63,058 nucleotides of DNA, taken from assembly GCF_001642955.1 (NCBI RefSeq), contig NZ_LWSK01000022.1, positions 1 through 63,058 on the forward strand, read 5' to 3'. The stretch comes from Rubripirellula obstinata. Its GTDB lineage: Bacteria > Planctomycetota > Planctomycetia > Pirellulales > Pirellulaceae. Position numbers and translations under genes: made by a program. Positions within the stretch are counted from its first letter, which is position 1; every line of letters begins with the position of its first letter. The notes beneath the pieces were generated by a model, which saw nothing but the letters and a program-made list of their open reading frames with translations, did not search any database and was not told where the DNA came from. Below are positions 4,541-62,542 of this stretch, piece by piece.

Positions 4541-4593
4541 CACCCCCTCTTGGCCGTTGAAACGTCCGACCTCCTCCCCGGTGGAGGTTTGAA
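4541..4593. repeat. Half-unit of the 125-bp double-hairpin repeat family
   Basis: CCCCCTCTTGGCCGTTGAAACGTCC followed by a CCTCC...GGTGGAGG hairpin matches, with small changes, the second half of the units tandemly repeated at 44645-45207 and at 44049-44100. It shows that the family is dispersed in the genome and not confined to the array. Confidence 0.75.
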
Positions 4594-43978: not shown

Positions 43979-44103
43979 CACTTCTCCCGCTTGCGCGAGA
44001 GAGCTCAAGCCAAAGCGTGGGAGAGGGGTTACGATCAGGCACGCTGGCCCCCTCCCGGCCGCTGAAACGTCCGACCTCCCCCGCTGCGCGGTGGAGGTTC
44101 TAA
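43979..44103. repeat. 125-bp double-hairpin repeat unit upstream of the DUF559 gene
   Basis: One diverged unit: CTCCCGCTTGCGCGAGAGAG...GTGGGAGAGGGGTTACGATCAGG, then CCCCCTCCCGGCCGCTGAAACGTCC and the hairpin CCTCCCCCGCTGCGCGGTGGAGG. The same unit is tandemly repeated after the nuclease gene. Confidence 0.85.
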
Positions 44104-44174
44104 ACTGAACGAGGATCACTTTCGCGGTGGAGGTGATCTTTCTGTTTTCATCATTCGCGTGACAGGAGAAAGTC

Positions 44175-44597
44175 GTGGATAAGCGACACCCTATTTCGGA
44201 TGCACGCGATTTGCGCCGAAGACAAACTGAAGCTGAATCACTGTTGTGGAGCGTGTTGCGGGCGAAGCAAGTTTGTCGCCTCAAGTTCCGACGCCAACAT
44301 CCTGAACCGCCCTACATTATCGACTTCGCTTGTCTCGCGGAGAAGCTTGCCGTTGAAATCGATGGTGGCTATCACGACAACGTGTACGACAAGGACCAAG
44401 CTCGTGAAAGATTCTTAATTGATCGGGGTTGGCGGATCAAGCGTTTCACTAACGAAGATGTTCGTAGCGACGTAGAATCTGTTGCGACCGCAATCGCTAG
44501 GTATCTCGGTCGAGTCTACAGTTTCCAAAAACGTCAAGCTGGAACTTCAAGTGTTCTGGATCGCCAGATCGCCAAAAAAGACAGAGACAAACGTTAA
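44175..44597 (+). CDS. DUF559 domain endonuclease-like protein
   Basis: 140 residues. LRRRQTEAESLLWSVLRAKQ...KFRRQHPEPPYIIDFACLAEKLAVEIDGGYHD...RERFLIDRGWRIKRFTNEDV is the DUF559 signature. It is related to very-short-patch-repair/restriction-endonuclease-like folds, with the D-ExD metal residues visible as IDF...VEIDG. GTG 44175 has AGGAG a few bases upstream. The tail (QKRQAGTSSVLDRQIAKKDRDKR) is basic. The gene sits between one copy of a 125-bp repeat and four and a half tandem copies of the same repeat. Substrate is unknown. Confidence 0.85.
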   Translation: MDKRHPISDARDLRRRQTEAESLLWSVLRAKQVCRLKFRRQHPEPPYIIDFACLAEKLAVEIDGGYHDNVYDKDQARERFLIDRGWRIKRFTNEDVRSDVESVATAIARYLGRVYSFQKRQAGTSSVLDRQIAKKDRDKR

Positions 44598-44644
44598 CTT
44601 CCTCAACCAAGCCAAGCTCATGTAGTTTGGTCACGACAGCGTTT

Positions 44645-45207
44645 CACCTCTCCCGGCCCGCGGGAGAGGTCGAGCCTAAGCGAGGGAGAGGGTTTACGAT
44701 CAGGTGCGCCGGCCCCCTCCCGGCCGCTGAAACGTCCGACCTCCCCCGCTGCGCGGTGGAGGTTTTAAGCCTGCACTTCTCCCTTTGGGAGAGGTCGAGC
44801 CTAAGCGAGGGAGAGGGTTTACGATTAGGTGCGCCGGCCCCCTCCCGGCCGCTGAAACGTCCGACCTCCCCCGCTGCGCGGTGGAGGTTTTAAGCCTGCA
44901 CTTCTCCCTTTGGGAGAGGTCGAGCCTAAGCGAGGGAGAGGGCTTACGATCAGGCGCGCCGGCCCCCTCCCGGCCGCCCAAACGTCCGACCTCCCCCGCT
45001 GCGCGGTGGAGGTTTTAAGCCTGCACTTCTCCCTTTGGGAGAGGTCGAGCCTAAGCGAGGGAGAGGGCTTACGATCAAGTGCGCTGGCCCCCTCCCGGCC
45101 GCCCAAACGTCCGACCTCCCCCGCTGCGCGGTGGAGGTTTTAAGCCTGCACTTCTCCCTTTGGGAGAGGTCGAGCCAAAGCGAGGGAGAGGGCTTACGAT
45201 CAATTAC
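44645..45207. repeat. Tandem array of 125-bp double-hairpin units
   Basis: Four full units and one partial unit, with CCTGCA boundaries at 44770, 44895, 45020 and 45145 (period exactly 125). Each unit contains hairpin 1 (CTCCCTTTGGGAG with an imperfect GAGGGAGAGG partner), TTACGATCA, CCCCCTCCCGGCCG, AACGTCCGAC and hairpin 2 (CCTCCCCCGCTGCGCGGTGGAGG). Unit 1 starts with a different hairpin tip (CTCCCGGCCCGCGGGAG), like the unit before the nuclease gene. Copies differ by a few substitutions only, so expansion is recent. Apparent open frames across it are by-products. Confidence 0.95.
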
Positions 45208-56181: not shown

Positions 56182-56769
56182 GGCTGGCAGTTTGGGAAGA
56201 ACGAAAACTAAGCGGATAACTGTTTGACGTTATTTCCTGAATGGTTTCCGCTCGTGGTTATCCGCCATCTAGCAGCAAAACCAGTGCAACTCACCTTTTG
56301 AGGCTGGGGATTTTTCGCAACCCGCAGCGTAAGCAAGGAATATCACAAATCCCCTGTTAACGCTCCTAGGCTGTGAATTTACCTCATTCTTAAACTTAAA
56401 CCTAAACTTAAACCTAAACTTAAACTTCAACTTAAACCTGAACCTAAACTTTCCCCGTGATAGTTGAAGTTTAAGAAAAAGTTGAAGTACAAGTTTTGGG
56501 ATTGCTCATTTGTTCGCAGCCTATGCGAGTTAAAATTTCAGTGTCCAACCCAAATTAAAAAGTGCGTTGCCCTGGCAGCAAAACAAACCCCTTGGCCCTG
56601 TGCCCCATCTTCTGCGATACTCTCGGCTCTTCAAAACACGACCATCCAAGGCACAACCGCCAGAGAAAAGGTCGATTCGCGGGGGTCAAGCGGTGCCCAG
56701 TGCGTGAATCCGGCCGTCAACAACAGCAGAATTCTCTATCCAAACATTTCAAACCAGAAAATTTCTCGA
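56182..56769. repeat. Long intergenic region with CTTAAA/CCTAAA hexamer tract
   Basis: 588 bases without a recognised gene. At 56391-56452 about ten imperfect copies of a hexamer (TTAAAC/CTAAAC) stand in tandem. Within it CTTAAACTTCAACT (56419-56432) is perfectly complementary to AGTTGAAGTTTAAG (56462-56475), giving a 14-bp stem and 29-base loop. An open frame runs through from 56464 into the next gene, but its residues are not protein-like. Confidence 0.75.
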
Positions 56770-60808: not shown

Positions 60809-62542
60809 TTAGCAGCCGCATCCGCTGTCACATCCGCCACCGCAGCTTGAGCAACCGCTGGCAGGAGCCGACGCAGCGCCGCAACCTGTCGATACGCTTG
60901 ATCCGCAACCGCTGGTGACAGGAACTTCAATCGTTTGTGGGACCATGATGGTCTTGCAAACTTGAACTTCCTTTTGAACCTGAACAGGAACGCAAACGGT
61001 GTAGGTTTCCGTCTTGGTTTCTGGAACTTGGTCGACCACGGTGACCGAGTAAGGAACTTCTTCTTGGACTTGATCCATGACCGTTACGGTGTAGGAGCGA
61101 GTCTTTTGTTGAGGCACCATGTCGGTGACCGTTCGTTGACGAGTTTCGGTCGTCATCGAAGTCTTAGGAACCATACGGGTGCGGGTTTCGCTAACCATGG
61201 TCGTCACTTGACGATCGCGGGTGCGAGTTTCAGTGCTGTAGCTTGTGCGTGACTCGGTTCGAGTACGTTGTTCGCTACGAGTCTTGGTCACTTGGTACTC
61301 TTGAGTACGAGTTTCCTGACGGCACTTCTGAATTGCAACCTGACGGGTGCGAGTTTCTTGACGCGTACGAGTCACAGGAACGCTACGAGTACGAGTTTCG
61401 TTGCGTGTCTTTGTGACGGGAACCATTCGAGTCTTGGTTTCGCTGCGGTACTTGGTCACGGTGACCGGACGAGTGCGAGTTTCGGTTCGGCACTTGTTCA
61501 CGGTGTACGTGTAAGGCTGCTGAACTTGCTCGGTCGTGTAAGTCGTGTAGGCAACTTGCTCACAAACGACGTTGGGAACCCAAACCTTCTTGGTGATGGT
61601 TTGCGTGCAGCCACCGCCGCAAGCGTCGCCACATCCGTCGCCGCATCCGCAAGCATCGCCGCATGATCCGCACGATCCACATCCGCCACAACTGTTGGCG
61701 GCGGGAACTTCTTCGGTCACGCACTGATAGCTACCCATGTCCTTGGACACGGTGCGATACTTGGTGACTGGGACGCGTTGGCAAACGGTCTTCATTGCGG
61801 TCTTGGTTTCCTGGTAAGGAACCTTGACGCTGTAAGACTGCTCAGTCGTTTCGGTGTAAGGAACCTGAACCGTGTAAGTCTGTGCGACTTGTTCGGTGTA
61901 AGGCACGCAAACCGAGTACGATTGCTCGATGTTCTCGGTGTAAGGAACGCTTACCGAGTATGACTGTTCTTGCATTTCCGTGTAAGGAACGTTGACCGAA
62001 TACTCGCGTGTTGCGGTTTCAGTGTAAGGAACCTGAACGGTGTAAGGAACTTCAACCTGTGTCGTTACAGGAACCTGAACGGTGTAGTTCTCTTGGACAG
62101 TGGATGTCTTAGGAACTTGGACCGTGTAGGATTCTGCGACTTGCGTCGTCACAGGAACTTGGACCGTGTAGTCTTCGGTTCGCTGTTGAGGAACCATGAC
62201 GGTGTACTGTTGCGTCTTGGTTTCTTGCCGAGGCACGCTCTTGGTGACCGTTCGTGTACGTGTCTCAGTACGAGGCACGCTCTTCATTACGGTAACTTCG
62301 CGAGTCTTGGTTTGTTGTTGCATCACGGTCTCGGAGACCATTTGCGTTTCGGTGACTTGTTGCGGAACCATGATGGTTTTTGTCGTCATGGTTGGTCCGC
62401 AGTCGCCGCTGCCCAAATCGCTGGCAACGGCAGAGCCGCAACCACAATCCGATGCAGGGGCTTCGCAGCATTGTGCGTTCGCTTGGCCAGCCGCACAGAC
62501 GGCGGTCAGCAACATGGCGAATGAAAATACAGTCTTCTTCAT
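60809..62542 (-). CDS. YTV-repeat, cysteine-rich cell-wall protein
   Basis: 577 residues with signal peptide MKKTVFSFAMLLTAVCAAG...NAQ. At least nine consecutive 14-residue repeats of the form Y-T/S-V-x-V-P-x-T-E/T follow (YTVQVPYTETATRE and relatives). After a Cys/Gly-rich hub (SCGGCGSCGSCGDACGCGDGCG) come Arg/Thr-rich 14-residue repeats (ETRTRSVPVTRTRQ) and a C-terminal Cys cluster ending GCDSGCGC. This is the YTV family described from Rhodopirellula cell-wall proteome work as a candidate structural wall protein, probably cross-linked by disulfides. The start is the ATG of the signal peptide; an open frame extends to 62668 without homology. Confidence 0.9.
   Translation of the reverse strand: MKKTVFSFAMLLTAVCAAGQANAQCCEAPASDCGCGSAVASDLGSGDCGPTMTTKTIMVPQQVTETQMVSETVMQQQTKTREVTVMKSVPRTETRTRTVTKSVPRQETKTQQYTVMVPQQRTEDYTVQVPVTTQVAESYTVQVPKTSTVQENYTVQVPVTTQVEVPYTVQVPYTETATREYSVNVPYTEMQEQSYSVSVPYTENIEQSYSVCVPYTEQVAQTYTVQVPYTETTEQSYSVKVPYQETKTAMKTVCQRVPVTKYRTVSKDMGSYQCVTEEVPAANSCGGCGSCGSCGDACGCGDGCGDACGGGCTQTITKKVWVPNVVCEQVAYTTYTTEQVQQPYTYTVNKCRTETRTRPVTVTKYRSETKTRMVPVTKTRNETRTRSVPVTRTRQETRTRQVAIQKCRQETRTQEYQVTKTRSEQRTRTESRTSYSTETRTRDRQVTTMVSETRTRMVPKTSMTTETRQRTVTDMVPQQKTRSYTVTVMDQVQEEVPYSVTVVDQVPETKTETYTVCVPVQVQKEVQVCKTIMVPQTIEVPVTSGCGSSVSTGCGAASAPASGCSSCGGGCDSGCGC

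Follow-up and report, generated by a model that had tools for sequence, protein, structure and literature searches.

The DNA analysed here, a 63,058-nucleotide stretch from the planctomycete Rubripirellula obstinata (the window), probably carries one member of a widespread and still unnamed class of mobile elements, which have hairpin-plus-tail ends of the TM type found in Escherichia coli and a DUF559 nuclease as sole protein and likely mobiliser. The association of DUF559 genes with these repeats is firmly supported across the genomes compared; that the DUF559 protein itself catalyses the movement of the unit is, we infer, the most likely interpretation. As this gene-plus-repeat unit is also found inside genes without a break in their frames, it suggests an undescribed kind of mobile DNA.

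The DUF559 locus of the window

A reading made from the letters of the window alone (the sequence-only reading) had placed a DUF559 gene between one diverged repeat unit and a tandem array, with a solo half-unit 40 kb away, and our searches recovered this arrangement (Table 1). The upstream copy is 91% identical over 110 nt to 44659-44768 and lies in the same orientation; by direct-repeat families, the array copies start at 44659, 44784, 44909 and 45034, with a 48-nt part at 45162. The same reading took the array as a sign of amplification beside the gene. The 125-bp period and the near-identity of the units stand, but plain unequal exchange can produce tandem copies, and our argument rests on dispersed copies and on the association across species. 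Dispersed copies are indeed plentiful: at least 46 matches to the unit at E<=1e-3 occur in the 6.58 Mb, 307-contig assembly, at least 40 of them on other contigs (lower bounds, as 40 of 57 candidates were scored). The dispersed palindromes proposed near the nuclease are thus present genome-wide, but they are hairpin-plus-tail modules and not simple palindromes. Each 125-bp unit holds two such modules in opposite orientations, the inverted one being a CCTCC...GGAGG hairpin with a GGGAGGGGGC tail. When folded as DNA, the whole 125-nt unit beats its dinucleotide shuffles (z -2.7; 3 of 200 shuffles equal it); the two modules folded singly do not stand out against shuffles, with the fold of 44777-44825, which shows the hairpin, at z -0.9 and the inverted module region (44833-44886) at z -1.4.

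Table 1. Features of the DUF559 locus and its repeats in the window
Feature	Position	Strand	Basis
DUF559 (YcjD-like, PD-(D/E)XK/EDxHD-type) nuclease gene, 140 aa	44175..44597	+	PF04480, E 3.5e-32
Upstream repeat unit, diverged	43994..44103	+	E 1.1e-38 match to unit; direct orientation with downstream array
Downstream array, 125-bp units	44662..45202	+	TRF: period 125, 4.3 copies, 97% matches; direct repeats
Solo part-unit, 40 kb from array	4543..4593	+	80% identity, E 2.8e-7
Hairpin module, representative copy: TTCTCCC-TTT-GGGAGAGG, 14-nt linker, tail GGGAGAGGG	44777..44817	+	sequence
Second module, inverted: CCTCCACCGC...GCGGGGGAGG, 18-nt linker, GGGAGGGGGC	44837..44887	-	sequence

The genome has one PF04480 match, and its BBP7 gene points to a planctomycete; an Rfam scan of the window returned no family match. 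Two further tandem arrays were also seen in the window, namely a 42-bp repeat at 61832-61990 (3.8 copies, 71% matches) and an array of the hexamer CTTAAA at 56389-56451 (10.5 copies).

Linkage of DUF559 genes to TM-type repeats

At the DUF559 loci surveyed, the recurrent sequence CCCTC[TG]CCC-loop-GGG[GA]GAGGG-nn-GGGTGAGGG, with GGGTGAGGG as the conserved tail, is the BoxC/PIT/'intrastrand triplex' motif TM_ECO of E. coli (PMC4666352). A strict TM comprises a hairpin, CCCTCNCCC...GGGNGAGGG, and, 2-4 nt downstream of it, GGGNGAGG. The 125-bp unit of the window departs from this definition, with a linker of 14 nt and TTCTCCC as first arm, and retains arm and tail; going by these elements, it is a related variant of the TM and not a strict one. 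The strict form is present beside ycjD, the DUF559 gene of E. coli, where the BoxC copy listed as no. 9 (PMC4666352) lies 168 bp from the 3' end of the gene; the chance of any of the 18 BoxC loci falling <=250 bp from ycjD is about 0.003. According to the same paper, the E. coli repeats at times form inverted pairs, PIT elements block DNA polymerase in vitro and TMs accompany instability (PMC4666352); 100 BoxC-type palindromes were counted in Enterobacter sp. 638 (PMC2869309). PMC4666352 reports no mobility gene near TM_ECO and leaves the spread of the repeat unexplained, and neither 'DUF' nor 'nuclease' appears anywhere in its main text. The sequence-only reading had been aware of no described role for DUF559 proteins in repeat spread; this agrees with the open-licence PMC literature, where titles and abstract openings yielded no paper joining DUF559 or ycjD with BoxC, triplexes or repeats.

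That reading had also proposed a survey of DUF559 genes elsewhere for flanking hairpins. Patterns from three YcjD-like proteins, run against a collection with one genome per species (84,980 species), gave at least 554 confirmed relatives, from which the 80 most YcjD-like were kept. These best 80 loci were chosen by protein alone, blind to the flanking repeats, and their record titles name gamma-, beta-, alpha- and deltaproteobacteria, Dadabacteria, Spirochaetota, Gastranaerophilales, Chloroflexi, Nitrospira and others. In the best 80, the density of CCCTCTCCC/GGGTGAGGG-type hairpins less than 250 bp from DUF559 is some 20-fold that at 1.5-5 kb: the 8-mers CCTCNCCC/GGGNGAGG reach 10.6/kb against 0.52/kb (251 in 482 kb), and the full TM motif 3.2/kb against 0.09/kb. 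At <=400 bp, 73 of the 80 loci have at least one 8-mer, 70 at least two and seven none, and 51 have a full TM by a looser pattern with a tail gap of 0-14 nt. Of 35 loci with an upstream TM at <=400 bp, 27 have the purine tail of the nearest one directed toward DUF559 (p 0.002, the loci being partly dependent on one another).

One might suppose a coincidence, in which repeats gather wherever intergenic DNA tolerates them and some of these places contain DUF559 by chance, as TMs in E. coli are described as always intergenic (PMC4666352) and many genomes lack DUF559. However, 149 DUF559-adjacent intergenic segments hold 456 8-mers against 41 in 189 other segments (segments set by simple ORF calls), and intergenic position does not account for the enrichment. 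Together with the distance profile above and the genome-wide expectation given next, this contradicts the coincidence, which we hold to be highly improbable.

Among 30 gammaproteobacterial loci listed, only one of which (G060) overlaps with the best 80, 94 strict hits fall <=300 bp from DUF559 against 0.29 expected from the genomes' own totals; a strict hit stands beside the gene in 20 of the 30 and two or more 8-mers in 27. An extreme case is G209, whose entire genome has four strand hits, all flanking DUF559. Being measured within genomes, this linkage is independent of the phylogeny problem that affects the genome-level tests below. In 19 loci from planctomycete relatives, inspection of the flanks by eye found CCTC[TA]CCC / GGG[TA]GAGG hairpins beside nearly all, often as inverted pairs. 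Two of these relatives give hints that repeat and nuclease may vary together: in G012, four of six matches to the window unit surround its DUF559 gene, and in G030 a long unit is present on three contigs, around the DUF559 copies of C191 and C528 and on C192, with only shorter tail matches beyond that genome, in five others. The loci surveyed thus show the DUF559 gene to be physically tied to TM-type repeats across many phyla.

Repeat number also follows DUF559 at the level of genomes. The strict pattern TCKCCCN{2,10}GGGAGAGG was counted in 229 Gammaproteobacteria sampled evenly across the class, 55 of which are DUF559 carriers at E<=1e-10. At least ten strict hits occur in 34/55 carriers versus 16/174 others (odds ratio 16, p 1.5e-14, without phylogeny correction), with medians of 20 and 0. 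A reversed-pattern control gave 0-2 per strand in the gammaproteobacterial genomes listed, except G145 (5 and 6). Strict hits occur in 18 of 19 genomes of the best-80 loci, ranging from 3 (G068) to 521, with none in G078; the control in these 19 reached 9 and 9 in G062 and 5 and 3 in G065. Fewer than four strict hits are found in 13 of the 55 gammaproteobacterial carriers, and such low counts in DUF559 genomes are due in part to variation of the repeats. Among 60 planctomycete relatives, 24 have a PF04480 match, strong or full-length (E below 1e-20) in 15; with the nine weaker or partial matches placed with the non-carriers, at least 20 hits occur in 7/15 strong carriers versus 4/45 others (p 0.003, without phylogeny correction), and with them counted as carriers in 8/24 versus 3/36 (p 0.02). 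Within the window's genus, 18 of 19 genomes without a DUF559 match lack any match to the window unit, the remaining one (G015) having three short matches; the two other DUF559 genomes have six (G012) and none (G001).

Repeat-rich genomes without DUF559 exist as well, comprising the 16 gammaproteobacteria and, among the relatives, G003, G040, G054 and G055. With G042 added, these form a set of 21 repeat-richer non-carriers: 12 lack even a PF04480 trace at E<=10, and five have a weak or partial match over the family cut-off, one of these matches (G092) being a broken DUF559 fragment that lies about 160 bp from a full motif. On the whole, in the genomes sampled, those with DUF559 are shown to be richer in TM-type repeats. 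The sequence-only reading had named two outcomes that would refute it, DUF559 genes elsewhere without repeats and repeats equally abundant in relatives lacking the gene. We found instead linkage in the best 80 and in the 30 gammaproteobacterial loci, a genome-level association in Gammaproteobacteria and in the planctomycete relatives, and, in the window's genus, near absence of the unit from genomes without a DUF559 match. Its candidate, DUF559 as mobiliser of its own repeats, gains support from both lines, which are not proof of function.

A comparable contrast is seen within E. coli, in a sample of 60 rows taken evenly across the ranking (one partial record dropped, n=59). The median number of BoxC-like places is 22 with ycjD (14-34, n=37) versus 6 without (2-20, n=22), with p 4e-9 after ycjD's own place is subtracted. 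Since ycjD is tied to phylogroups A, B1 and C (PMC12817139), this contrast amounts to few events and is confounded with phylogroup; an O157:H7 genome without ycjD has 14 BoxC-like places. At the fabI-sapF locus, ycjD plus BoxC is covered in 3,364 of 5,426 E. coli genomes (3,362 in another count). In two genomes without ycjD (L269, L270), the place is taken by genes for a TetR regulator and an RND pump, described as eefRABCD (PMC12817139), and the 3.1 kb there have no TM 8-mer; one locus can thus be filled either by ycjD plus BoxC or by the eefRABCD efflux operon. The excerpted PMC12817139 notes ycjD there without mention of BoxC.

Alleles at two further E. coli loci confirm the instability of BoxC loci: at lldD-trmL, the matched stretch ranges from 401 down to 249 bp, with differences in the short allele beyond the repeat itself, and at ygfF-gcvP a 64-bp deletion lies between two TMs. 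Neither polymorphism offers a clean target duplication. Three observations on these regions may be recorded separately. First, in E. coli EC11 (L216), the lldD-trmL BoxC pair holds an inverted-repeat insert, CTGTCTCTTGATCAGATCT..., which we take to resemble the IS50 inside end. Second, a palindrome with 16-bp arms (CACCTCATTCTGACAA...TTGTCAGAATGAGGTG; L068 4259-4301) starts at the ycjD start codon, making autoregulation possible. Third, in E. coli ETEC6 (NZ_CP041627.1), an annotated IS1 transposase and two DUF559 pieces underlie the ycjD match, and IS1 therefore seems to interrupt the gene.

Same-site units, in-frame insertion and the enzyme

The hrpA gene, common to L095, L120 and L141, three of the best-80 loci from the Gallionella group whose record titles name Gallionella, Nitrosomonadales and Sideroxydans, shows the unit in different states. 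At site 1, L120 has a TM pair without a gene, and L141 and L095 have repeat-DUF559-repeat; at site 2, L095 has no insert, L141 a TM pair and L120 pair-DUF559-pair. The three frames are stop-free (1437, 1488 and 1561 aa), and alignment with E. coli HrpA puts the inserts between HF/APIIxVSGRTYP and between EMGM/QPATYEQIH. These comparisons show that an orthologous site can be occupied by a repeat pair in one genome and by a repeat-DUF559-repeat unit in another, and that at one such site a relative has no insert. Near the C-terminus, the L120 protein has a third repeat pair in frame (SPTPPPGGEGLKS...).

Insertion in frame extends to unrelated host proteins. In 14 of the best 80 loci, DUF559 lies within an ORF of at least 300 aa, and for 12 of them the host protein could be named, from Pfam in 11 cases and from alignment in L141; in L092 and L138 no host domain was recognised around DUF559. 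Across the best-80 loci and regions from gammaproteobacterial DUF559 genomes, Pfam places DUF559 in frame between or within the host domains of PriA (L082), Mfd (L093), MetG (L109), EarP (L088), BioF (L239) and an MmeI-like enzyme (L130), with alignments made for BioF, MetG, Mfd and PriA. Beside a recognised domain, it is found with HsdS (L144, L237, L240, L242), HsdM (L132, L238), N6/N4 methyltransferases (L079, L234) and a GHMP kinase (L098). Repeat-derived peptides, among them SPSPSGRGVGVR and LTPTPLPEGEG, flank the DUF559 domain in the hrpA cases and in other frames; L144 has no 8-mer <=300 bp and L130 none upstream. Eight of 15 further regions have a core-motif frame, the others being L235, L236, L241, L244, L245, L246 and L248. 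Gene-less motifs, too, lie deep in long ORFs (L079, L102, L120, L122), accounting for 10 of 79 motif matches with overlaps counted separately. As L079 and L132 bear strain names without a MAG label, in-frame insertion is not only a MAG artefact. Taken together, the frames compared show repeat-DUF559 units inside unrelated host proteins as well.

From these comparisons, the mobility of the repeat-DUF559 unit is firmly supported. The loci compared yielded neither a target-site duplication nor a nucleotide-clean empty site; for the window unit, other genomes of the genus reach no more than 51% identity in the CinA-like gene next to it, too distant for a nucleotide empty-site comparison. A tblastn search with YcjD at E<=1e-5 matched 43 of 72,556 plasmid and 3 of 50,697 phage records within the YcjD-like range, and horizontal carriage is thus probably not the main story.

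Turning to the enzyme, Pfam finds DUF559 and a weak MTES_1575 match, with no transposase, in three window genes. Residues E21, D50, E61, D63, H67 and D74 of the window protein are invariant in an alignment of 52 sequences. The AlphaFold2 model (pLDDT 84.8) retrieves in Foldseek first 3HRL, itself a DUF559 protein, and second 3R3P, the catalytic domain of I-Bth0305I (E 4.2e-4, TM 0.53/0.73), followed by mitoribosome proteins of T. gondii (E 1e-3 and weaker), PvuRts1I (E 0.01) and, far weaker, Vsr (E 0.16-0.19). On this model, the enzyme looks nearer to the homing endonuclease/Vsr fold than to a transposase. Earlier work on the PD-(D/E)XK superfamily had picked up Vsr with a YcjD profile (PMC1189080). 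We also considered a defence system and set it aside, as in PADLOC the window protein has only a weak DpdF match (E 1e-4) and YcjD no match.

The likeness to Vsr raises the alternative that DUF559 is a repair or resolving nuclease for hairpins, triplexes or mismatches, with the flanking hairpins regulating or terminating its gene. The Caulobacter VsrA, which has a DUF559 domain, is required for the DNA damage response when a cytosine methyltransferase is missing (PMC12907096), and the polymerase block by PIT elements and the instability accompanying TMs (PMC4666352) would suit such a role, as would the weak Vsr matches in the fold search. It leaves unexplained, however, the in-frame presence of DUF559 and repeats in HrpA, PriA, Mfd, MetG, BioF and EarP, the three states at one hrpA site and the adjacency of the repeats to the gene, and we judge it decidedly unlikely.

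A somewhat stronger contender, if still rather unlikely, is that DUF559 is a homing-type parasite which inserts, as an IS does, into existing repeats spread by another agent and in this way comes to have repeats on either side. The gene-less TM pair present at both hrpA sites and the nearness of the fold to a homing endonuclease are consistent with this, and G003, a genome of the window's genus with at least 40 matches to the tail of a sister repeat and no DUF559 match, offers a possible precedent. Its IS4-family transposase gene has five copies in the regions examined, and a TM tail lies 21-23 bp past the 3' end of four of them, meaning that TMs can be insertion targets; by its position, the element looks like an IS that targets BoxC-type hairpins. 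Many repeats adjoined by such a gene imply that the repeats are used, and perhaps also spread, by agents other than DUF559. Against the parasite stand the strict hairpins of G209, which occur solely around its DUF559 gene, the tracking of repeat number with DUF559 presence in the 229 genomes and in E. coli, and the upstream tails directed toward the gene in 27/35 loci, which blind insertion need not yield. For the record, the IS4-family gene (NF033592, PF01609) was seen in L223, L224 and L227, at about 2.53-2.55, 4.56 and 8.00 Mb of contig C1 in G003, and L222 (3579-5082) of the same genome has four TM-pair copies with a period of about 453 bp in one intergenic region.

We therefore return to DUF559 as mobiliser of its own unit. 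A homing-class nuclease, dispersed hairpins and gene-less and gene-bearing states of the same sites fit a spread by cutting and copying. The DUF559 nuclease would cut or nick at or near the hairpins, or at the empty target, after which host repair would place a copy of the repeat pair, either alone or enclosing the nuclease gene, in a new site. The gene-bearing unit would be the self-mobilising form, and gene-less pairs, such as BoxC in E. coli and the dispersed units of the window's genome, its non-autonomous offspring. Coding sequences would tolerate the insertions because translation can pass through the repeats without meeting a stop.

In its widest form, to which we give about an even chance, DUF559 elements are a pan-bacterial self-mobilising class with BoxC/triplex-type hairpin ends and a homing-endonuclease-like nuclease, represented in E. 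coli by YcjD, and the BoxC/PIT/TM repeats known there and in over 260 genomes descend from them as non-autonomous forms. If so, one class would enter intergenic regions and, in frame, the genes of housekeeping proteins (HrpA, PriA, Mfd, MetG, BioF, EarP and Hsd subunits), which would then be synthesised with the nuclease as one of their domains. This would give a named, testable enzyme to a repeat family whose spread was left unexplained in PMC4666352, and one of a class that titles and abstract openings in the open-licence PMC literature had not linked to hairpin-repeat spread. A whole nuclease domain planted in frame in proteins such as MetG, Mfd and PriA also represents a route of domain birth outside intron, intein and transposon.

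Comparison with known systems

One close analogy is that drawn by the sequence-only reading, with REP/BIME-RAYT, in which a single chromosomal enzyme gene sits among dispersed hairpins with an asymmetric tail and in inverted pairs. The analogy is apt: the DUF559 gene is flanked by dispersed hairpins of its own type, with tails and in inverted pairs, and YcjD-like genes are rare on plasmids and phages. The enzyme class differs, as that reading had remarked. RAYT is a Y1 HUH transposase, whereas DUF559 is a PD-(D/E)XK/EDxHD-type nuclease, on which Pfam and fold agree, and its units also lie in frame inside genes. REP hairpins carry GTAG or CGTC as a foot tag; the conserved tail seen in the DUF559-linked repeats is GGGTGAGGG. 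In terms of fold, only 3HRL, itself a DUF559 structure, matches better in the PDB than the EDxHD homing endonuclease I-Bth0305I (3R3P); known homing nucleases reside in introns, inteins or free-standing phage genes, whereas DUF559 lies between dispersed hairpin repeats. As to a MITE, which would share its ends with a DDE-transposase IS, the three window genes scanned include no transposase, and an IS4-family gene adjoins TMs in G003.

In-frame insertion into unrelated protein-coding genes is shared with the Rickettsia palindromic elements, which are about 150 bp long and add a short peptide (PMC10969869); as these are described there, the DUF559 inserts are set apart by their TM-type sequence and by the whole nuclease domain that they can carry. 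Caulobacter VsrA has the same Pfam domain, and its catalytic residues agree in spacing with the window protein at E21, D50, D63 and H67 but not at the final D; it is proposed as a very-short-patch repair enzyme, with no repeat link in the excerpted PMC12907096. Finally, BoxC/PIT/TM_ECO is the known counterpart of the repeats themselves: the same hairpin and GGGTGAGGG tail flank ycjD and 51/80 of the best DUF559 loci, and the units of the window differ from it in their longer tail linker.
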